Shown here: in pieces, positions 8,010 through 29,747 of the stretch
Layout of the letters: each line of letters begins with the position of its first letter
Position numbering within the stretch: the stretch's first letter is position 1
Source of the DNA: Ignavibacteriota bacterium
GTDB taxonomy: Bacteria > Bacteroidota > Ignavibacteria > UBA10030 > UBA6906
Length of the DNA: 39,207 bases
NCBI GenBank assembly: GCA_003154425.1
Contig: PMDK01000296.1
Span: forward strand, 1-39,207
Reading direction: 5' to 3'
Position numbers and translations under genes: made by a program
The notes under the pieces: model-generated
Databases searched by the model: none
What the model saw: the letters and a program-made list of their open reading frames with translations, nothing else
What the model was told of the DNA's origin: nothing

Positions 8010-9563
8010 ATGGCAAAAACCAGATCTGCCGGGTCCGGCTACATGAAACTCGCAGGAAGCGCCAAAGCAGCACCCGAGGGAACCATGACGGATACGCTCG
8101 GCGCCGACGAGGTCGCCGACGTCACGGTCCGTGTCCGCGGTGGAAAACCGCTGAACCCACGATCGAACCCGGGCAAACGCCTCTCGCGAGAAGAGTTCGC
8201 CAGGCAGTATGGCTCCTCGGACCGGGACCTCGCGGCAGTTGAACAGTTCGCCCACGAGCATCATCTCACGATCGTCGAATCGAGCAGTGCGCGCAAAAGC
8301 GTGATCCTCAGGGGGAAGGTGAAGGACTTCGAGGATGCGTTCATGGTCCACCTTTCCCACTACCGCGACGCGGGAGGGAATGTCTTCCGGTGCAGGACCG
8401 GCGAAATCTCGATACCAAAGTCGCTCGAGAAGATCATCGAGGGGGTCTTCGGACTCGACGACCGGCCTCTCACGCGGCCGATGTTCCAGGTGGAAACGCG
8501 CGACGGGAAGTTCATCAACCATGCGGCATCTCCCCAGAGCTTCTCCCCCAATGCGCTGGCAGGTATCTACGGCTTCCCGAAGAGCGTTACAGGCAAAGGA
8601 CAGTGCATCGGCATCATCGAACTCGGGGGAGGATACCGGACAAACGACCTCAAGGCGTATTTCAAGTCGCTGAATATTCCGCTCCCCTCCGTGAAGGCCG
8701 TCTCTGTGGACGGAGGGCTCAACAGTCCCTCAACCGCGGACAGCGCCGACGGCGAGGTGATGCTCGACATCGAAATCGCCGGCGCGATTTCCCCCGGAGC
8801 GGCGATCGTCGTCTACTTCGCGCCGAACTCGGACAAGGGGTTCCTGGATGCGATCACGACGGCCGTCCATGACGCAAAAAACAAGCCCAGTGTGATTTCC
8901 ATCAGCTGGGGCTCCGCGGAGAGCCGATGGACCGCCCAGTCACTGAAGAGCTTCAACGACGCCTTCAACGCGGCCGCGACGGTCGGCGTCACCGTCTGTG
9001 CCGCTGCAGGGGACCAGGGTTCCAGCGACAGCGAGACGGACGGGAAGGTCCATGCCGATTTTCCGTCTTCAAGTCCGTTCGTCCTGGCCTGCGGCGGAAC
9101 AAAGCTCACCGTGAACGGGACAACCATACAGTCGGAAGTCGTCTGGCATGAGTCCAGCGACTCCGCCACCGGGGGAGGCGTAAGCGACGTGTTCCCTCTC
9201 CCCGACTATCAGAAGAAAGCGGGGGTGCCTCCCTCTGCAAGCTCGGGGTTCAAGGGGAGAGGTGTGCCGGATATCGCGGCGGACGCAGACCCGGAGACAG
9301 GATATAATGTGCTCGTCGACGGACAACAGCTTGTGATCGGCGGAACGAGCGCCGTGGCTCCGCTTATGGCCGCGCTGATCGCGCGCGTGAACCAGGCAAA
9401 GGGGAAGCCGGTCGGTTTCATTCATCCCGCGCTGTACGCCAACCCGAAGCTGTGCCGCGACATCACGCAGGGGGACAATATCACCACCTCAACGCACAAG
9501 GGGTACAAAGCCGGCCCGGGATGGGATCCGTGCACAGGGTGGGGGGTCTTATCGGGGCTTTAG
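8010..9563 (+). CDS. sedolisin/kumamolisin-type serine-carboxyl peptidase (S53)
   Basis: The protein has 517 residues. Residues ~30-165 form the S53 pro-domain (activation region), followed by the catalytic domain. Glu249 and Asp253 (GEVMLDIEIAG), Asp335 (AAGDQGSSD) and Ser447 (GGTSAVAP) match the Glu-Asp-Asp-Ser set of kumamolisin. The spacings of 4, 82 and 112 residues are nearly those of kumamolisin. The C-terminal DITQGDN and GPGWDPCTGWG fit the calcium site. It is an acid endopeptidase made as a self-cleaving zymogen. There is no classical signal peptide, as in kumamolisin itself, so the export route is open. A strong Shine-Dalgarno (GGGAGGAG) precedes the ATG. No house-type promoter is seen in the 66-bp gap after the MFS gene, so cotranscription is likely. 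Confidence 0.93.
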   Translation: MAKTRSAGSGYMKLAGSAKAAPEGTMTDTLGADEVADVTVRVRGGKPLNPRSNPGKRLSREEFARQYGSSDRDLAAVEQFAHEHHLTIVESSSARKSVILRGKVKDFEDAFMVHLSHYRDAGGNVFRCRTGEISIPKSLEKIIEGVFGLDDRPLTRPMFQVETRDGKFINHAASPQSFSPNALAGIYGFPKSVTGKGQCIGIIELGGGYRTNDLKAYFKSLNIPLPSVKAVSVDGGLNSPSTADSADGEVMLDIEIAGAISPGAAIVVYFAPNSDKGFLDAITTAVHDAKNKPSVISISWGSAESRWTAQSLKSFNDAFNAAATVGVTVCAAAGDQGSSDSETDGKVHADFPSSSPFVLACGGTKLTVNGTTIQSEVVWHESSDSATGGGVSDVFPLPDYQKKAGVPPSASSGFKGRGVPDIAADADPETGYNVLVDGQQLVIGGTSAVAPLMAALIARVNQAKGKPVGFIHPALYANPKLCRDITQGDNITTSTHKGYKAGPGWDPCTGWGVLSGL

Positions 9564-10746: not shown

Positions 10747-10920
10747 ATGGTGGGAAGAACTATCTCTGCGTTGCTCACGATCCCCGGTTGTGCGGCATCC
10801 ACGCTCCTGTTCAGCCCGCCGGGAGCGTTTGCGGCGGACACGCTCCTGACGATCGACGCGGGGAAGATCCGGGGGGTGATGGAGACGGCTAGACGAGTGA
10901 GCGGTTCTCGAGTTCTATGA
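10747..10920 (+). pseudogene. 5' remnant of a secreted carboxylesterase
   Basis: An ideal translation start (AAGGAGGAG then ATG at 10747) opens a 57-codon frame. It encodes a signal peptide (about residues 1-29, ending PPGAFA before A) and then DTLLTIDAGKIRGV, which looks like the first strand of type B carboxylesterases (the GxIRG segment before the usual F-x-GIPYA motif). The similarity ends near base 10885, where the frame runs antisense into the 3' end of the metallophosphoesterase gene and stops at 10918-10920. The catalytic domain, normally about 500 residues, is missing. It is most simply a deletion remnant whose start signals survive. A real short secreted peptide is less likely. Confidence 0.5.
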
Positions 10921-11545
10921 TATCCTCGATCGTGACCACGGCATAATACCCTTTCCCGGCCGGACCGCAGTTGATGACCGGCAGCCCGGCGATCTTATCG
11001 ATCCCGCGGGCTTCATGTATGTGACCGCAGATTGTGGCATCGGGTTTCCTCAGCCTGATGAAGTCACGCACAGCGCTGCTCCCGACATGTTTCCCCGAAC
11101 GCGCGCGGTCGAGTGCAGTCCCTTTCGGGGCGGCATGGGGGACAAAGATCTTCCAGTGGGCCGCGGCGACACCCTTCCACCCCGCCTCCGCGCGGGCCAT
11201 GATTTCTCTCTCCGAGATTTCGTTCAGGGTGTGCAACGGCGAGGCCGGAGCCGCCGAGACGCCGAAAAATCCCGCCTCCCCGATCACCACGCCGCGGGAA
11301 TCAATGGAGACACCAAGCTGCACCAGCTTCCGCTCCAGAGAGAGCGGGTCCATGTTCCCGGCCACCGCGAGAACGGGCTTCTGAAAGGCCTCGATCCGCC
11401 GGATCGCTTTTTCGAGTTCAGAAGGTGTCCCGCCCGTCGTGATATCCCCCGCCAGGATCACCAGGTCGAACCTCTTCTCAAGAGTCAGGACACGCTCGAC
11501 CACCTCGATCGATCCGTGCAGATCACTGAATGCAAGAACGCGCAT
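10889..11545 (-). CDS. calcineurin-like metallophosphoesterase
   Basis: The protein has 218 residues. The full set of metal-binding motifs is present: Asp8-x-His10 (SDLHG), Asp34 (LAGDI), Asn64 (AGNMD), His137 (VPHAAP) and GHIH (174-177). It is cytosolic, with no signal peptide. Its compact size groups it with YfcE-like or archaeal-type phosphodiesterases that hydrolyse phosphodiester or phosphomonoester bonds with two metal ions; the natural substrate is unknown. GGAGAGAG lies 4 nt before the ATG. It follows the GH35 gene by 46 bp with no promoter in between, so it is probably the last gene of that operon. Confidence 0.9.
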   Translation of the reverse strand: MRVLAFSDLHGSIEVVERVLTLEKRFDLVILAGDITTGGTPSELEKAIRRIEAFQKPVLAVAGNMDPLSLERKLVQLGVSIDSRGVVIGEAGFFGVSAAPASPLHTLNEISEREIMARAEAGWKGVAAAHWKIFVPHAAPKGTALDRARSGKHVGSSAVRDFIRLRKPDATICGHIHEARGIDKIAGLPVINCGPAGKGYYAVVTIEDIIELENRSLV

Positions 11546-11591: not shown

Positions 11592-13397
11592 TTACTCTTC
11601 GAGCGTTTTCATCCCCCGGAGAGGCTTCGGCTCGTTACAGTGGAGGTCGAAAACAACGATCTCATTCCGCCCCCTGTTCAACCACGGAGCCGGGCAGTAC
11701 AGTCGCGTTTGAGGGCCGACATTCCAGTAGCGTCCCAGGTTGTGGCCGTTCACCCAGACGAAGCCCTTCACGTAGCCCGACATGTCGAAATACGTGTCGG
11801 CAGCGGCATTCAGGTCGAATGACCCTTTGAAGAACACCCCGCGCCGCGCAGTGTCAACGGGCGCGCTTCTGAGACCCGCAATGTACTTCTCATTCATCGG
11901 CAGGCCGATTACTTCCCAGTTCATCAGCGTCATTCCGTTCAGCGTCACCCGCTCCGTGATCCCCTTCCGGTCGATCAGGGAGGGACCGTAGTTTATCCGC
12001 CCCATCCCCTCGACGAGTATTTCCAGGACCGGCCGGCGGAGATCCGTCTCAGGCAGGTTTATCGTGTTCTCCCCCTCCCGCCGGTCCAGTTTCCCGACAT
12101 AGCGACCGTTCAAGAAAACCAGCGCATAATCGTGCAGATCTGTCACAGTGAGGCTGCCGCTCTTGCGGCCGATGAGCCTCGTCCGGTAGACCATGAAGCC
12201 GTAGTCCTGTCCATACGCCTCGAAGGGTTTCGGCTGGACCGAAAGAAGAGACGGAGGGAGACCGGTCCAGATTGTGGAATATGCCCTCATTGCGACCGGA
12301 GGGATATCCATCGCGGGGACGGGCTCAGGCACAGAAGGCGGCGTGCCGTCAAATCGTGCGATGAGGTTCCGGAGCGCGAAGAACTTCGCCGTCGGTCTCC
12401 CCTGCTCATTGACCGGCGCATCGTAGTCATAGCTCGTGACATGCGGTTCGTACCCTTTCCCGCCGGAGTTCGCCCCCGCGGTAAACCCGAAATTCGTCCC
12501 GCCGTGCACAACGTAGAGATTGAACGATTTCCTGTTCGACAGGAGATACCGCACCTCGGCCAACAGGGACGCCGTATCGGGCCGGGCCCATTTCTCCCCC
12601 CAGTGCGTCAACCAGCCGGGGTACGTCTCGCTGCTGAATGCCGGGACCCGCGGATTTCTCTTTCCTGCTTCCCTGAAGTCTCCATCGTTCGAACCCGAAT
12701 CGAGACCGATCGCTGCTCCGTCGATATTTCCAGCATCGAGCATATATGCCGTGGCGCCATCCGCGGTGTAGAACGGAACATCCACCCCGCCTTTCAGCCA
12801 CATGCCCCTGAGCGCTTCAAGATACGTCGTGTCGTTCCCGTAGCTCCCGTATTCATTTTCAATCTGCACCATGAGGACCGGACCGCCGTTGGTGACCAGG
12901 AGCGGTCTGAGGAGGGCTGCCAGGTGACCGATATATCTCCCGACCGCATCCATATAGCGCGTATCCATGCACCGGACCTTGATGTCGGGTACGCGGAGGA
13001 GGTACGGGGGGAGCCCGCCGAATTCCCATTCGGCGCAGACGTAGGGCCCGGGTCGAAGGAGGACGAACATACCTTCCTCCTGAACGATCCGGATGAACTG
13101 CGCGACATCCCTGTTCTCCGTGGTGAAGTCGAACTGGCCGGGCTCACTCTCGTGGTAATTCCAGAAAATGTAGGCCGCAACCGTGTTACATCCCATGGCC
13201 TTCGTCATCCGGATACGGTGGCGCCAGTATTCCCTGGGGATGCGGGCAGGATGCATCTCACCGCTGATGATCTGAAACGGCTTCCCGTCAAGAAGGAAGT
13301 CGTGTTCGCCCAGCACGAAGGTATGCAGCCCCGGGCGGGACAGGGCGGCGAGCGGCGCAACGATGAGTACGAGTGCGAGTAACGCGGATCTCTTCAT
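11592..13397 (-). CDS. secreted GH35 beta-galactosidase
   Basis: The protein has 601 residues. Residues 1-20 form a signal peptide (LLALVLIVAPLAAL). The TIM barrel opens with FLLDGKPFQIISGEMHPARIP, the standard GH35 start. GGPVLMVQIENEYGSYG contains the acid/base (Glu182), and SSETYPGW contains the nucleophile (Glu257). PGPYVCAEWEFGGLPPYL (~117-133) is also diagnostic. The C-terminal third carries the beta-sandwich domains of the family. It removes terminal beta-galactose from oligo- or polysaccharides in the periplasm or outside the cell; there is no type IX sorting domain. It lies in an operon behind a small unknown gene (33 bp gap). With the GH27 enzyme at 26346-27512 it suggests use of galactose-bearing plant or algal glycans. 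Confidence 0.95.
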   Translation of the reverse strand: MKRSALLALVLIVAPLAALSRPGLHTFVLGEHDFLLDGKPFQIISGEMHPARIPREYWRHRIRMTKAMGCNTVAAYIFWNYHESEPGQFDFTTENRDVAQFIRIVQEEGMFVLLRPGPYVCAEWEFGGLPPYLLRVPDIKVRCMDTRYMDAVGRYIGHLAALLRPLLVTNGGPVLMVQIENEYGSYGNDTTYLEALRGMWLKGGVDVPFYTADGATAYMLDAGNIDGAAIGLDSGSNDGDFREAGKRNPRVPAFSSETYPGWLTHWGEKWARPDTASLLAEVRYLLSNRKSFNLYVVHGGTNFGFTAGANSGGKGYEPHVTSYDYDAPVNEQGRPTAKFFALRNLIARFDGTPPSVPEPVPAMDIPPVAMRAYSTIWTGLPPSLLSVQPKPFEAYGQDYGFMVYRTRLIGRKSGSLTVTDLHDYALVFLNGRYVGKLDRREGENTINLPETDLRRPVLEILVEGMGRINYGPSLIDRKGITERVTLNGMTLMNWEVIGLPMNEKYIAGLRSAPVDTARRGVFFKGSFDLNAAADTYFDMSGYVKGFVWVNGHNLGRYWNVGPQTRLYCPAPWLNRGRNEIVVFDLHCNEPKPLRGMKTLEE

Positions 13398-13430
13398 GGG
13401 TGAAGGCGGAATTGGATCAGCAGGAGAGAT

Positions 13431-13727
13431 TCAGCGGAGTTTTTTTGCAAGCACTTTCGGGTATTCCACGGAGAGGGCGTACTTCTGGACCTCTTTCAGG
13501 CGCCGGGGAAAAAGATCCCGGAGGTTCATATTCGGCATGCCGTCGACATAGATTTCATCGGCGACGAATTCCGCCCTCCCACCTTTCGGGACAAAGTGTC
13601 CTTTCACGCGCGCGTCGAAATGCACCGGCATCTTGTTCACCATCCGTTCGATCTTGATACCGAACTCGCCCCGAATCTTCAGCAACGGCTCAGGAGTGTA
13701 ACCAAAAATCAGCCCCTTGAGATCCAT
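13431..13727 (-). CDS. small protein of unknown function, first gene of the GH35 operon
   Basis: The protein has 98 residues from the ATG at 13727; GGGGGA stands 6 nt upstream, whereas a TTG further upstream has no ribosome site. I recognise no family. It has no signal peptide or membrane helix. Beta-strand-like segments alternate (LKIRGEFGIKIE, VHFDARVKGHFVP, AEFVADEIYVDGMP), followed by a basic helix (RRLKEVQKYA) and the end VLAKKLR. The pattern loosely recalls half of a DUF2993-type lipid-binding fold, but this is weak. Position as promoter-proximal gene ahead of GH35 and the phosphoesterase suggests a shared regulatory unit, not a shared reaction. Confidence 0.65.
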   Translation of the reverse strand: MDLKGLIFGYTPEPLLKIRGEFGIKIERMVNKMPVHFDARVKGHFVPKGGRAEFVADEIYVDGMPNMNLRDLFPRRLKEVQKYALSVEYPKVLAKKLR

Positions 13728-13790
13728 GAGGGTCCCCCAATGCGGGATAGATATGGACAAGCAATGAATGGCAGAACAGAGTGGTGTGCA

Positions 13791-13819
13791 ATCATACGCA
13801 CGGGCGGGACGAATGTCAA
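13791..13819 (-). promoter_or_regulatory. near-consensus promoter of the GH35 operon
   Basis: Minus strand TTGACA (13819-13814), exactly 17 bp, TATGAT (13796-13791). This is the best sigma70-like match of the window. Predicted transcription start is about 13783-13784, leaving a leader of ~56 nt. Confidence 0.75.
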
Positions 13820-13845
13820 ATCCTGGAAGGCCTTTCTTCCGCTTC

Positions 13846-13861
13846 TGTGATCTGTGTCACC
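13846..13861. promoter_or_regulatory. CRP-like operator upstream of the GH35 operon
   Basis: TGTGA (13846-13850), six bases, TCAC plus C (13857-13861) matches the CRP/FNR-superfamily consensus TGTGA-N6-TCACA in 9 of 10 positions. Its centre is about 70 bp upstream of the predicted start of the GH35 operon, a standard class I activation position. I found no second such site in the intergenic regions. Catabolite-type control is inferred. Confidence 0.5.
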
Positions 13862-13887
13862 GAATTCCGGCACGCGGCCGCGGGATA

Positions 13888-13922
13888 CCGACTCAATGAC
13901 CCATGTGTGTGCGTTGAGTCGG
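13888..13922. repeat. 9-bp perfect inverted repeat (hairpin)
   Basis: CCGACTCAA (13888-13896) and TTGAGTCGG (13914-13922) pair perfectly around a 17-nt loop. It lies between the CRP-like site and the M28 stop codon and could be a transcript-end structure of the M28 mRNA or part of a plus-strand RNA ending at 14000. The rest of the 278-bp gap 13728-14005 shows nothing else. Confidence 0.45.
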
Positions 13923-13976
13923 GGCGGGGCCGACGTGAAGAAAGCCGACACGCCTCAGAGTGGCTCGATTGTTAGC

Positions 13977-14000
13977 CCCGCCAGAGAGCGGCGGGTTTTT
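13977..14000 (+). terminator. intrinsic terminator, oriented on the plus strand
   Basis: CCCGCC (13977-13982), a 7-nt loop, GGCGGG (13990-13995), then TTTTT (13996-14000). The T-tract follows the stem on the plus strand, although both neighbouring genes are on the minus strand. For M28 the same stem lies just past the stop codon but is not followed by U residues. No house-type plus-strand promoter is seen upstream. Confidence 0.6.
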
Positions 14001-14005
14001 CAAAA

Positions 14006-15721
14006 TTAAGGGGTGCGCTGGCCTCCCGACGGCATGGGCTTCCTTGGGAATTTCGCGTCCCTGTTGGCCGCCGTGTATGCAAAGACCGCAATGATCGTCG
14101 CAGCCTGCTTCATGTCGGGCTCCTGCGCCCTTTCGAACACGTCCATATTATAGTGGTGCGTCCGGCTGTCGTATTCCAGAGGATCCTGGATAAACTGGAA
14201 TCCGGGGAGCCCGATGCCGTCGAACGACTGGTGATCTGTCCCCCCCGTGTTCTGGATCGTGATCGTCTGCGCCGTCGGATCCCCGTAGGCGGTGAACCAG
14301 CTCCGGAATACCGGGCGCGCGGCCTCGTTCCCCTGGAGATAGATGCCCCGGATCCGTCCGCTTCCGTTGTCGTGGTTGAAGTAGACGGAGAGCTTGTCGT
14401 ATTCGGGAGTTGTCTTCAACTCTCCTCCCCCGCCCGGGAACCCTCCGCCGGCGTCCCCTTCGCGCCTGCCGAATACTGCGGAAACATATTCACGGGACCC
14501 GATAAGTCCCTCCTCCTCCGACCCCCACAGACCGATGCGGATCGTCCGCCGCGGCTTCAATCCGGCGCTCTTCATGACCGTCCCGAGTATGCGCATCGCC
14601 TCCATGCAGGCCGCGGTCCCTGTGCCGTTATCCGTCGCGCCGGTCCCGCTGTGCCAGCTGTCGAAGTGAGCTCCGATCATGACGACCTCATCCTTCAGAT
14701 CGGTGCCGGGAATCTCTCCGATGATGTCGAACCCCGAATCCGCCTTCGTCGTGGCGACTTCGAGGTTCATGTCGAGCCTCACCTTCTCCCCCATCCGGAG
14801 CATGCGCACGATCCGGTTATAGTGTTCCGACGCAAAAACAACCTGGGGAATGATTTCAGGCGCTTTCTGGTCGTAAGGCGCAATGCGCTGATTGAACGGG
14901 ATGTCGGCTGACTGGGGAACGGTCGCGGACTGGACCAGCAGCGTTCCTCCATCCCCTCGCCCCTCTGTGATAGCCGCAAGGGCCTTTTCGTTCTGCGCGA
15001 ATTCCAGCTTCCGCGGGTTCACCTGCATTTCCTGCCAGCGCATGATCACCGCGGGGCTATCGATATCGGGTGCGAACTGGCGCATGATCGTGAACATCGA
15101 ATCGAGCGTCGGAACCCGGCCAAAGAGTCCCCGGCGCCCACCCCTGCGTCCACCCTGCACGTCCGCGTTCGCCATCTTCAGGAGAACAGAGTCAGCGAGC
15201 CGGAGGGCGAGCGGCTCGAAATGGGGCTTCACCTCCGCGGGAGCGCTCAGGAGAACATACTTCCCTTTCAGCTTCCCTTTGTATGCATCAAAATCCTCGG
15301 GCTTCTTAACGTCCAGGTAAACGACGTCCGCTTCGGTCTCGTCCACACCCGGAGACCAAGCCGCGGGATAGGCGATGACCGGATAGGGGACCGGCGTCTT
15401 GACCATCGCGTAGAAATTCTTCAGCGACCAGCCCCTGCCGAGAGGCGCCCAGTGATGGTAGTGGACATTCTGGAGACCCCAGCCTTTCAATTCCTTCCCC
15501 GCCCAGTCCGCAGCCCTCTTGAACTCGGGGGACCATCCCAGCCGGGGACCGTACACATCCGAGAGAGTGCTGAGGATCTCCATTACGTGAGAGTTCTTCA
15601 GTCCCTCTTCCTTGATTTTCGCAACAGCCGCGGTATCGACCTTTTCGCGAGGTGTCTGGGCGAGAGCATAACCCGACACCAGCGAAAGAAGTACGATGAT
15701 CCTGGTCACCGTGTGAGTCAT
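14006..15721 (-). CDS. secreted M28-family zinc aminopeptidase
   Basis: The protein has 571 residues from the ATG at 15721 (AGGAGG upstream, signal peptide IIVLLSLVSGYALAQ right after). A longer reading frame upstream would start before the predicted transcription start. The zinc site of M28 peptidases is intact: His352 (GAHFDSW), Asp364 (GATDNGTG), the SEEEG glutamates (401-405), Asp451 (NHDNGSG) and His497 (GTDHQSF). A PA-type insert occupies about residues 100-260, as in glutamate carboxypeptidase-like members, including a Gly/Arg-rich linker near 190-201. It probably trims amino acids from peptides in the periplasm or outside. It has its own promoter at 15807-15835. Confidence 0.92.
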   Translation of the reverse strand: MTHTVTRIIVLLSLVSGYALAQTPREKVDTAAVAKIKEEGLKNSHVMEILSTLSDVYGPRLGWSPEFKRAADWAGKELKGWGLQNVHYHHWAPLGRGWSLKNFYAMVKTPVPYPVIAYPAAWSPGVDETEADVVYLDVKKPEDFDAYKGKLKGKYVLLSAPAEVKPHFEPLALRLADSVLLKMANADVQGGRRGGRRGLFGRVPTLDSMFTIMRQFAPDIDSPAVIMRWQEMQVNPRKLEFAQNEKALAAITEGRGDGGTLLVQSATVPQSADIPFNQRIAPYDQKAPEIIPQVVFASEHYNRIVRMLRMGEKVRLDMNLEVATTKADSGFDIIGEIPGTDLKDEVVMIGAHFDSWHSGTGATDNGTGTAACMEAMRILGTVMKSAGLKPRRTIRIGLWGSEEEGLIGSREYVSAVFGRREGDAGGGFPGGGGELKTTPEYDKLSVYFNHDNGSGRIRGIYLQGNEAARPVFRSWFTAYGDPTAQTITIQNTGGTDHQSFDGIGLPGFQFIQDPLEYDSRTHHYNMDVFERAQEPDMKQAATIIAVFAYTAANRDAKFPRKPMPSGGQRTP

Positions 15722-15806
15722 GTGTGAAGTGTCCTCCTGAGCTGAGTAATGAACCGGGGGTGGGAACGGAAGTGCGATGCACCCCGTTCGGCGTTGTTGT
15801 GGACGT

Positions 15807-15835
15807 AATATACAGAAATTAGACAGGCGGGCCAA
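15807..15835 (-). promoter_or_regulatory. house-type promoter of the M28 peptidase gene
   Basis: Minus strand TTGGCC (15835-15830), 17 bp, TATATT (15812-15807); start near 15800, leader of about 80 nt. It lies just past the stop codon of the upstream gene. Confidence 0.65.
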
Positions 15836-27686: not shown

Positions 27687-27711
27687 GATAATGAGAGAAG
27701 TTCTTTGAGAA

Positions 27712-27758
27712 GGCATCCCGGTTTCCCCGAATGGAAACAGGGGACGCCTTTTTTGTTT
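27712..27758 (+). terminator. strong intrinsic terminator in the DUF362 leader
   Basis: Outer stem GGCATCCC (27712-27719) with GGGACGCC (27741-27748), one mismatch; inner stem GTTTCC (27721-27726) with GGAAAC (27733-27738) around a 6-nt loop; then TTTTTTG (27749-27755). It lies between the promoter at 27658 and the start codon at 27798, so it either attenuates the gene or ends a ~60-nt RNA. Confidence 0.75.
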
Positions 27759-27797
27759 GCCATCGTCCAACAATCATACGGCGGGAAAAGAAGAGAA

Positions 27798-29747
27798 ATG
27801 AAGACCCATCAGAACCATCCCCACGGGGATCGAGCCGGCCACATGTTTCGCAATGGAGCAAACCCGTATTTCCTCGTGGTCGGCCTCGCTGCATTGATCT
27901 GGGTGATTGTTCGCGTCCTCCCGAAGCCTTCAAGGGCGGCGTATCCCTGCATGCGCGTCGCAATGTCGCTGGCGTCCGGCGTGCTCCTCCAGTTAGGGGG
28001 AGTGGCGATTTCTCTCCTGTCCCTGAGGAAGGCAAAGGAATCATTGAAGATCTCGAACTACCGGCTGGCGGCAGTGATGGTTATTGCGGCCGTGGCCGTC
28101 CCGTTGATTTTCACGGGAGACGTTCAGAGGGCGGACGCGACGTTCGCATCGTCACTGCACATTGCCGATCAGCCGATCGGCGTCGCCAAAGGGATCTTCC
28201 CCGGGCGGGTCGTCTGGGTGCATGACTCCTCGGCGACAAACATCAACTGCGTGCCCGACAGATACGGTCACGGCTGGTTTTTGAGCGAGAACAGCAATCA
28301 GACCTCAATTGACAGGATGGTCTCCGCCGGCCTTCAGACCGTTACAGGCCGGACCAGCGACAGCGCCGCATGGGACGGTTTGTTCCACTTCCACAACAAG
28401 AACGCGGGGAAGGGTGATATCGGGTATCAGGCAGGCGAAAAGATATTCATCAAGATCAATGCCACGAGCAGCTGGTCCGGGAATTTCAACGCGACCGATC
28501 TCTCCAAAGTGCAGAATTCTTATTATGGCATTTCCGAAACTTCACCACAGGTGGTGCTTTCGGTCCTGCGACAACTCGTCAACGTGGCAAAGGTCTCCCA
28601 GGCGAACATACTGGTGGGCGATCCCCTGAGACACATCTACAAGCACTGTTATGACCTCTGGCACCCGGAATTCCCGAATGTCCACTACCTGGATCATGAC
28701 GGGCTGGCCGGACGGGAAAAGGTGATTGCGAGCCAGACGGCCGTCATTCACTACTCCGACCGGGGAAAAGTGCTGCACACATCCACAGGTGCACCGACGG
28801 TTTCGGACCATCTGTATACCGTCTTCGATGACGCAGCGTATCTGATCGACATCCCGATGCTCAAAGGCCACACATATGCCGGGATGACCGCATTCGCCAA
28901 GAACCATTTCGGATCCCAGACGCGCGCCGACGCTTCACACCTCCACAACGGGCTCGTGTCTCCTCCGTCACCCGATTCGCTGAGGTACGGGTACGGTCTT
29001 TACCGGGTGCAGGTGGACCTGATGAGCCACCACCTCCTGGGAGGGAAGAACCTTGTCTTCATTCTGGACGCGCTCTGGGCAACGGATGCCGAGCTCGACA
29101 TGCCCGTGAAATGGGCGATGCCGCCGTTCAACAATGACTGGATGTCGTCGATATTTTGCTCTCTCGATGAGGTGGCAATCGAATCCGTAGGATATGACTT
29201 CCTCCGCTCGGAGTTCACGTCCGCACGCGGCCTCGCGACATACGTGCAGCAGGTCGGTGTTGACGATTACCTCCACCAGGCGGCCGACTCGACAACCTGG
29301 CCCAGGGGGATCATGTATGATCCTGACAGCACGGGGTCGCCGATCCCGAGCATCGGCGTCCATGAGCACTGGAACAACATGACGGAAATGCAGTATTCTC
29401 GGAATCTGGGGACCGGAAACGGAATCGAGCTCGTCAGGATGCCTCAGATTGTCAACGGAATTGCGGAACCGGTTGCAGCAGCAACGGCATACGAGCTTCA
29501 CCCCAATTATCCGAATCCGTTCAATCCCTCAACGACGATCAGCTTTGAAATCCGGCAGGCGGGCCGGGTGACGCTCAAGGTCTATGACGTGCAGGGGCGC
29601 GAAGTGGCGGCCATCGTCAACGGGACATTGCCGGCGGGATTCCACTCGCTGGCGTTTGACGGTTCCGGTCTTGCCAGCGGCATGTACTTCTACAGACTCG
29701 TCGCGGGGAGCTTCATCCAGACACGCAAGATGCTGCTCGTGAGATGA
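27798..29747 (+). CDS. DUF362 protein with N-terminal helices and type IX sorting domain
   Basis: The protein has 649 residues from the ATG at 27798 (GAAGAG upstream; an earlier in-frame start would cover the terminator). Three membrane helices lie at about 23-41, 57-75 and 91-107, with the YPCMRVAMSLASG loop seen in other DUF362 proteins of the FCB group. Residues ~125-540 are the DUF362-like domain, with IKINATSSW, ILVGDPLRHIY, DIPMLKGHTYAGMTAFAKNHFG and similar segments. Residues 565-649 are a complete type IX sorting domain (NYPNPFNPSTTI, VYDVQGREV, GMYFYRL, basic end). DUF362 has no proven activity; iron-sulfur or redox roles have been proposed for relatives. A cleaved sorting domain on a multi-helix membrane protein is unusual. 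Confidence 0.85.
   Translation: MKTHQNHPHGDRAGHMFRNGANPYFLVVGLAALIWVIVRVLPKPSRAAYPCMRVAMSLASGVLLQLGGVAISLLSLRKAKESLKISNYRLAAVMVIAAVAVPLIFTGDVQRADATFASSLHIADQPIGVAKGIFPGRVVWVHDSSATNINCVPDRYGHGWFLSENSNQTSIDRMVSAGLQTVTGRTSDSAAWDGLFHFHNKNAGKGDIGYQAGEKIFIKINATSSWSGNFNATDLSKVQNSYYGISETSPQVVLSVLRQLVNVAKVSQANILVGDPLRHIYKHCYDLWHPEFPNVHYLDHDGLAGREKVIASQTAVIHYSDRGKVLHTSTGAPTVSDHLYTVFDDAAYLIDIPMLKGHTYAGMTAFAKNHFGSQTRADASHLHNGLVSPPSPDSLRYGYGLYRVQVDLMSHHLLGGKNLVFILDALWATDAELDMPVKWAMPPFNNDWMSSIFCSLDEVAIESVGYDFLRSEFTSARGLATYVQQVGVDDYLHQAADSTTWPRGIMYDPDSTGSPIPSIGVHEHWNNMTEMQYSRNLGTGNGIELVRMPQIVNGIAEPVAAATAYELHPNYPNPFNPSTTISFEIRQAGRVTLKVYDVQGREVAAIVNGTLPAGFHSLAFDGSGLASGMYFYRLVAGSFIQTRKMLLVR

Follow-up and report, generated by a model that had tools for sequence, protein, structure and literature searches.

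GlxR of Corynebacterium and the CRP of Mycobacterium tuberculosis (Rv3676) have sites of the TGTGA-N6-TCACA type, and both, GlxR as chain 4byy, belong to the group of solved structures that are most closely related to the candidate regulator considered in this work. According to PMC10882989, class I CRP sites are centred at -61.5, -71.5, -81.5 or -91.5 and class II sites at -41.5, and the malT promoter of Escherichia coli is a class I promoter with its site at -70.5. The locus described here is like malT (same source) in that a single CRP-type site precedes a sigma-70-type promoter, some 70 bp ahead of the start, and differs from it in that the start is predicted, the half-sites are unequal, the promoter is near consensus, and both binder and signal are putative. 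In Bacteroides, BT4338 acts as a global regulator of how carbohydrates are used (PMC6989115), and for Ignavibacteria MAGs there are predictions of CRP/FNR regulons with roles in carbon sensing, their regulators being placed near MalR and Flp (PMC8510549). The sequence-only reading of this DNA had presented such control of glycosidases as little described in the group, a novelty that these predictions make smaller. Our locus would share with the MalR/BT4338-type and the predicted Ignavibacteria regulators a CRP-family control that in the wider group is tied to carbon use (PMC8510549 and PMC6989115), but, unlike those predictions, which used other matrices and genomes, the constant targets found here are orphan genes. 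The view that the operator is ordinary in kind and a new member of its class is well supported; among the matches listed by a literature search in which subscription journals are thinly covered, there was no publication on this operator or on the 98-aa ORF behind it.

The window, the whole stretch of 39,207 nucleotides that was analysed (contig PMDK01000296.1 of an Ignavibacteriota bacterium), carries on the minus strand a CRP-type operator at 13846-13861, which reads GGTGACACAGATCACA in gene direction (TGTGATCTGTGTCACC in plus-strand letters) and has 9 of the 10 consensus bases of TGTGA-N6-TCACA, with one mismatch. It is located 26 bp upstream of a TTGACA -35 hexamer (13819-13814, minus strand), which is followed after 17 bp by the -10 hexamer TATGAT (13796-13791, minus strand). 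This combination has 11 of the 12 promoter consensus bases and was the sole promoter-like site found in a scan of positions 12500-15500, where shuffled sequences give 0.7. Transcription is predicted to start at 13784 on the minus strand, a position that assumes a -10 hexamer ending at -7 and is uncertain by 1-2 bp, and the operator centre lies at -69.5 from it. The match, the centre "about -70" and the promoter were thus as the sequence-only reading had given them. Its appeal to the classical class I helical phase can be granted only within the error of the predicted start, as -69.5 has to be set against -70.5 in malT and -71.5 for the canonical position. Taken alone, the 9/10 match is at chance level: at equal base frequencies the 39-kb window should contain 1.16 matches with no more than one mismatch and one is present, and sites with at most two mismatches number nine compared with 11.5 in shuffles.

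When 41 genomes were searched, with the upstream region as query, there were matches in the window's genome (G000) and in the genus members G001, G002 and G003, and none in the remaining 37. In all four genomes the operator, the 26-bp gap and the promoter are kept, the operator being GGTGACACAGATCACA in the window, GATGACGCACATCACA in G001, GATGATGCACATCACA in G002 and AGTGATGCAGATCACA in G003, each 26 bp before TTGACA and each with 8 or 9 of the 10 bases of the TGTGA-N6-TCACA dyad. In the ungapped four-genome alignment, anchored on the promoter and including the upstream part, 11 of 16 site columns are invariant, compared with 3/26 in the gap to the -35 and 7/100 further upstream; both hexamers are invariant in 6/6 columns and the 17-bp spacer in 9/17. 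Treating columns as independent, a Fisher test of the site against the gap gives p 2.3e-4, and against gap plus upstream (10/126) p 1.3e-7. The TGA of the distal half and the ATCACA of the proximal half are present in every genome, the distal half being weak throughout (GGTGA, GATGA, GATGA and AGTGA). Because site, gap and promoter are kept in four of four genomes while the flanks diverge, conservation lifts the match beyond chance, and on this comparative evidence we regard the CRP-type operator as confirmed; a lack of conservation in relatives had been named in the sequence-only reading as one way to refute it, and the site survived this test. In G002 there is, 64 bp upstream of this operator, another CRP-like site (L021:1437-1450; G002:C104:28456-28469), which was not among the three best matches at the same place in the other genomes.

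The candidate binder was looked for among the six cNMP-binding matches of the window's genome. One protein only scored over the HTH_Crp_2 cut-off, and it also has the cNMP-binding domain, so that the domain pair of the CRP main cluster is present (PF00027, E 4.7e-25; PF13545, E 3.9e-11); two other HTH_Crp_2 matches remained below the cut-off. A CRP-family regulator, for which the sequence-only reading had suggested looking, was in this way found. Its gene runs into a contig end in this genome, which is 85.5% complete, and the shortened query reached 96.4 bits with the cAMP-activated CRP equivalog NF008732, below the 266-bit cut-off. If the weak matches in G013 and G018 are not counted, 39 of the 41 genomes have an ortholog, with an identity of 90 to 100% within the family, of 59 to 80% for most members of the wider order, and of 39% in G033; the reading frame of the G003 ortholog is complete.

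A search of solved chains gave CRP-family regulators as its best relatives. The best match was PDB 4ev0 (E 8.4e-33), a CRP-family regulator from Thermus and thus, unlike our candidate, from another phylum, with RLREAD in the C-helix where the candidate has RLRKAD and SRETVSR in the recognition helix in place of SRETISR. This SRETISR helix was present in all 24 orthologs read. E. coli CAP reads its site with R180, E181 and R185, and the recognition helix of the Crp main cluster is RE(T/M)VGR (PMC10127613). The R, E and R of SRETISR occupy the places of those three residues, so that compared with RE(T/M)VGR the base-reading residues are the same and V-G is replaced by I-S, in 24/24 orthologs. 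It is therefore likely, judging from these residues, that the SRETISR protein binds the operator. Regarding the signal, a cyclic nucleotide is possible, as two class III cyclase-domain matches were obtained in the genome. However, unlike the GlxR chain 4byy, which has T-N in the C-helix, the candidate has A-D at this pair, and a response to cAMP cannot for this reason be assumed.

The gene of the regulator could itself be a target. A TTGA(C/T)T-17-TATATT promoter precedes it in 35 of the 39 ortholog loci (L089-L112 and L146-L160); it was not seen in G001, G030, G033 and G035, the G001 sequence extending only 25 bp upstream. In 8 of these 35 promoters, from 6 of 26 genera (g1, g5, g13, g17, g21 and g25), the promoter holds TGA-N6-TCACA, the TGA being that of the -35 and TCACA following after exactly six bases, a pattern that shuffled spacers produced with a mean of 0.04 and a maximum of 3 in 20,000 runs. 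The pattern was noticed in 6 of the first 24 loci and tested afterwards; 15 newly fetched loci had it in 2 of their 12 promoters, and the six genera share ancestry, so they are not six independent events. Near misses were found in G005 (TCACG), G038 (TTACA) and G037 (one base off). Because the site overlaps the -35, this arrangement suggests repression at the regulator's own promoter.

With these elements, we consider it probable that the conserved CRP-like regulator with the SRETISR helix binds the operator about one class I distance upstream of the sigma-70-type promoter and activates the 98-aa gene. The regulator, the most likely binder, would occupy the site as a dimer, for which the promoter-proximal ATCACA would be the strong half, and would then contact RNA polymerase and raise transcription of this orphan gene and perhaps of the genes behind it, GH35 only where it is present. 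Class I activation would fit the geometry, with the centre at -69.5 from a predicted start. Counting against this reading are the 1-2 bp by which the centre departs from -70.5/-71.5, the weak distal half and the lack of any sign of a large regulon. The promoter may also need little activation, as it already has 11 of 12 consensus bases, and its closeness to consensus speaks for an alternative in which the regulator binds but represses the promoter or only fine-tunes it, as does the suggested repression at the regulator's own -35. We judge this alternative unlikely, given that the focal operator is clear of the -35, which it precedes by 26 bp in every one of the four genomes, and is near a class I position.

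It is also rather unlikely that the conserved dyad is bound by a regulator other than the SRETISR protein. The binding of the latter is a prediction and the genome is incomplete; moreover, a further cNMP-binding ORF (L006) runs off a contig end, beyond which its DNA-binding part could lie, and the two HTH_Crp_2 matches below the cut-off offer other candidates. Against this, the residues of the SRETISR recognition helix suit a TGTGA half-site, and a site of this kind is also present at the promoter of the regulator itself.

The first gene behind the promoter, in four of four genomes, is a 98-aa orphan ORF (13431-13727, minus strand) whose ATG at 13727 is aligned in all of them; its three orthologs are 74, 81 and 85% identical. 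Profile searches gave no NCBIfam or Pfam match, and AlphaFold modelled it with moderate confidence (mean pLDDT 71.1, pTM 0.53), the model having no match in the PDB at E 0.001 or better. Paralogs included, 5 of 98 genomes from the order carry a member of the family. The paralogs (L142-L145, also L076-L079) are 32 to 37% identical, and the best CRP matches upstream of them have 6 to 8 of 10 bases (8 in G000, L078); at the G000 paralog locus, an ORF with a sub-cut-off HTH_Crp_2 match lies some 465 bp upstream. Upstream of the focal operator there is an M28 peptidase (14006-15835, minus strand) and downstream a calcineurin-like phosphoesterase (10889-11545, minus strand), both in four of four genomes, with 1.8 kb of other DNA between the 98-aa ORF and the phosphoesterase in G001. 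Elsewhere in the window, a 680-aa protein (27705-29747) carries a Por_Secre_tail sorting domain, which makes type IX secretion likely in this organism.

The sequence-only reading had linked the operator to the expression of a beta-galactosidase, and the alternative that it serves control of this GH35 gene, with the 98-aa ORF as a passenger, deserves consideration. A beta-galactosidase-type gene (11592-13397, minus strand; PF01301, E 6.5e-104), with an N-terminus that by eye is signal-peptide-like, begins 33 bp behind the 98-aa ORF, and a scan found no minus-strand terminator between the two; given this spacing and the absence of a terminator in the scan, the two may be co-transcribed in the window. 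However, operator and promoter are intact in all four genomes whereas GH35 is intact behind the 98-aa ORF in the window's genome only. In G003 there is a remnant between the 98-aa ORF and the phosphoesterase (L048:5233-5498, G003:C56), in which the signal-peptide start is fused to the C-terminal end, with a frameshift, and in the corresponding gaps of G001 and G002 GH35 was undetected, the best tblastn E-values being 1.7 and 0.079. The operator is thus not kept together with GH35, which leaves GH35 control quite improbable, and of the earlier interpretation the CRP-type operator stands but the beta-galactosidase switch does not. As for a chance match in a stretch conserved for other reasons, which the expectation of about one such match per window would allow, it is scarcely credible and largely refuted by the comparison, since the flanks diverge and another promoter has a similar site nearby that is not conserved.

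This last promoter is a control found in G002 (L070), again TTGACA-17-TATGAT, with a CRP-like site 12 bp further out; in the other three genus genomes the promoter is similar and the site is absent, so L070 was rejected as a conserved operator and promoter proximity by itself does not explain the conservation of the focal one. A promoter that is similar in four of four genomes, of the form TTGACATT ... TATGATTATCAG and then ACTGTTCTT, was observed at L138-L141; in G002 it precedes a leader of about 280 bp with inverted repeats before the next long ORF, which could be a leader RNA or a small RNA.

A second operator stands at class II distance. Among 49 non-focal sites, a -10 hexamer (5/6 bases) lies 21 bp behind ATCACA four times, compared with 4 hits for 54 other gaps together in this ATCACA-proximal orientation, focal loci left out, and 6 hits over 5 gaps in the other orientation. 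A 21-bp gap corresponds to the class II distance, with the operator centre at -41.5, and at the focal operators the -10 stands 49 bp behind ATCACA in 4/4. The four hits are L026, L061 and the orthologs L038 and L041. The Poisson probability of the excess is 6.4e-5 for three promoters and 2.6e-3 for two, the safer count since L026 and L061 are possibly copies, and the pattern was noticed first and tested afterwards. Around their CRP-like sites, L026:1501-1560 and L061:746-800, from two G001 contigs, are alike over some 55 bp, and it is possible that they are copies of one promoter or of a mobile element. L038 (1499-1541) and L041 (reverse strand), from G001 and G002, are orthologous operators before a 97-aa orphan gene whose protein has no Pfam match over the cut-off. 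At the same place in the window's genome (L161, reverse strand) we found CATGCCTCACGTCACA, then 21 bp, then TATGCT, so that site and distance are kept in the three genomes examined (G000, G001 and G002). Here 11 of 16 site columns are invariant against 9/81 in the flanks (p 4.4e-6), as well as 5/6 of the -10. The distal half of this operator is TGC, and the sites have 7 of 10 consensus bases. Having its half-site in common with the focal operator, this second one speaks for the reading that we consider probable.

Regarding the same site before other sugar genes, for which the sequence-only reading had suggested looking, the search yielded one candidate: at L016:1501-1541 (G000:C188), TGATTCAAATCACA is followed after about 190 bp by a gene whose product has a 3-keto-disaccharide hydrolase domain (PF06439, E 1.5e-33), and after 21 bp by a weak TAGAAA, which makes L016 a possible sugar-related target. 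In the between-genome pair L016/L026 the neighbouring gene is common to both and the downstream part is different.

The regulon looks small from these searches. The word TGTGATNTGNRTCA with one mismatch gave 55 hits in the four genomes and 12 when reversed; we read 53 loci, covering 54 of the hits, and the 55th (window 8891-8904) falls within a peptidase ORF (8010-9563). Promoters with 9-11 of 12 bases were found within 160 bp at the four focal loci and at seven others (L017, L026, L029, L041, L054, L068 and L070), of which L070 was the one covered by the conservation search in all genus genomes. The between-genome pairs L045/L053 and L049/L057 were set aside, as they lie within long open frames, and L051, paired with L038 and L041, has no alignment at its site. 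In 21 family genomes the perfect palindrome was counted 18 times, compared with 7 reversed and 10.5 to 18.5 expected, and it is absent from the window's genome; TGAYNNANATCACA occurs 13 times in the four genomes, 5 of them at the focal locus, compared with 0 reversed and 5.6 to 14.4 expected (in both ranges the lower value derives from the window's G+C and the higher from equal base frequencies). Sampled sequence from G001 (372 kb) and G002 (384 kb), taken together with the window, contains 19 TGA-N6-TCACA sites, compared with 5 to 11 when the word is reordered and 4 when it is reversed, and the 756 kb from G001 and G002 held no class II case with 5/6 -10 bases and one with 4/6. A wide regulon was rejected, as the palindrome and TGAYNNANATCACA counts are within expectation and this sample added no further good class II case. 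Searching the 21 family genomes for the site plus -35 gave hits outside the genus in G017, G012, G016, G015 and G007, none of which has a match to the 98-aa ORF; the sequences of G017 and G012 are near-identical there and so uninformative as a footprint.

All these data could be brought together in a broader picture, as a whole tentative and rather doubtful, in which a deeply conserved CRP-like regulator of the Ignavibacteriae would be autoregulated through an operator sharing its -35, would respond to a signal other than cAMP, and would act from class I and class II positions on the orphan genes that make up a small regulon, GH35 having come and gone behind one promoter. What the analysis provides is two footprinted operators, at class I and class II distance, for a CRP-like protein conserved through an uncultured order, with a third candidate operator at the regulator's own gene, and it allows the half-site to be defined as TCACA paired with TG or TGA. 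The arrangement can do without GH35, and the small 98-aa protein is constant, a caution that an operator should not be named after the nearest enzyme.
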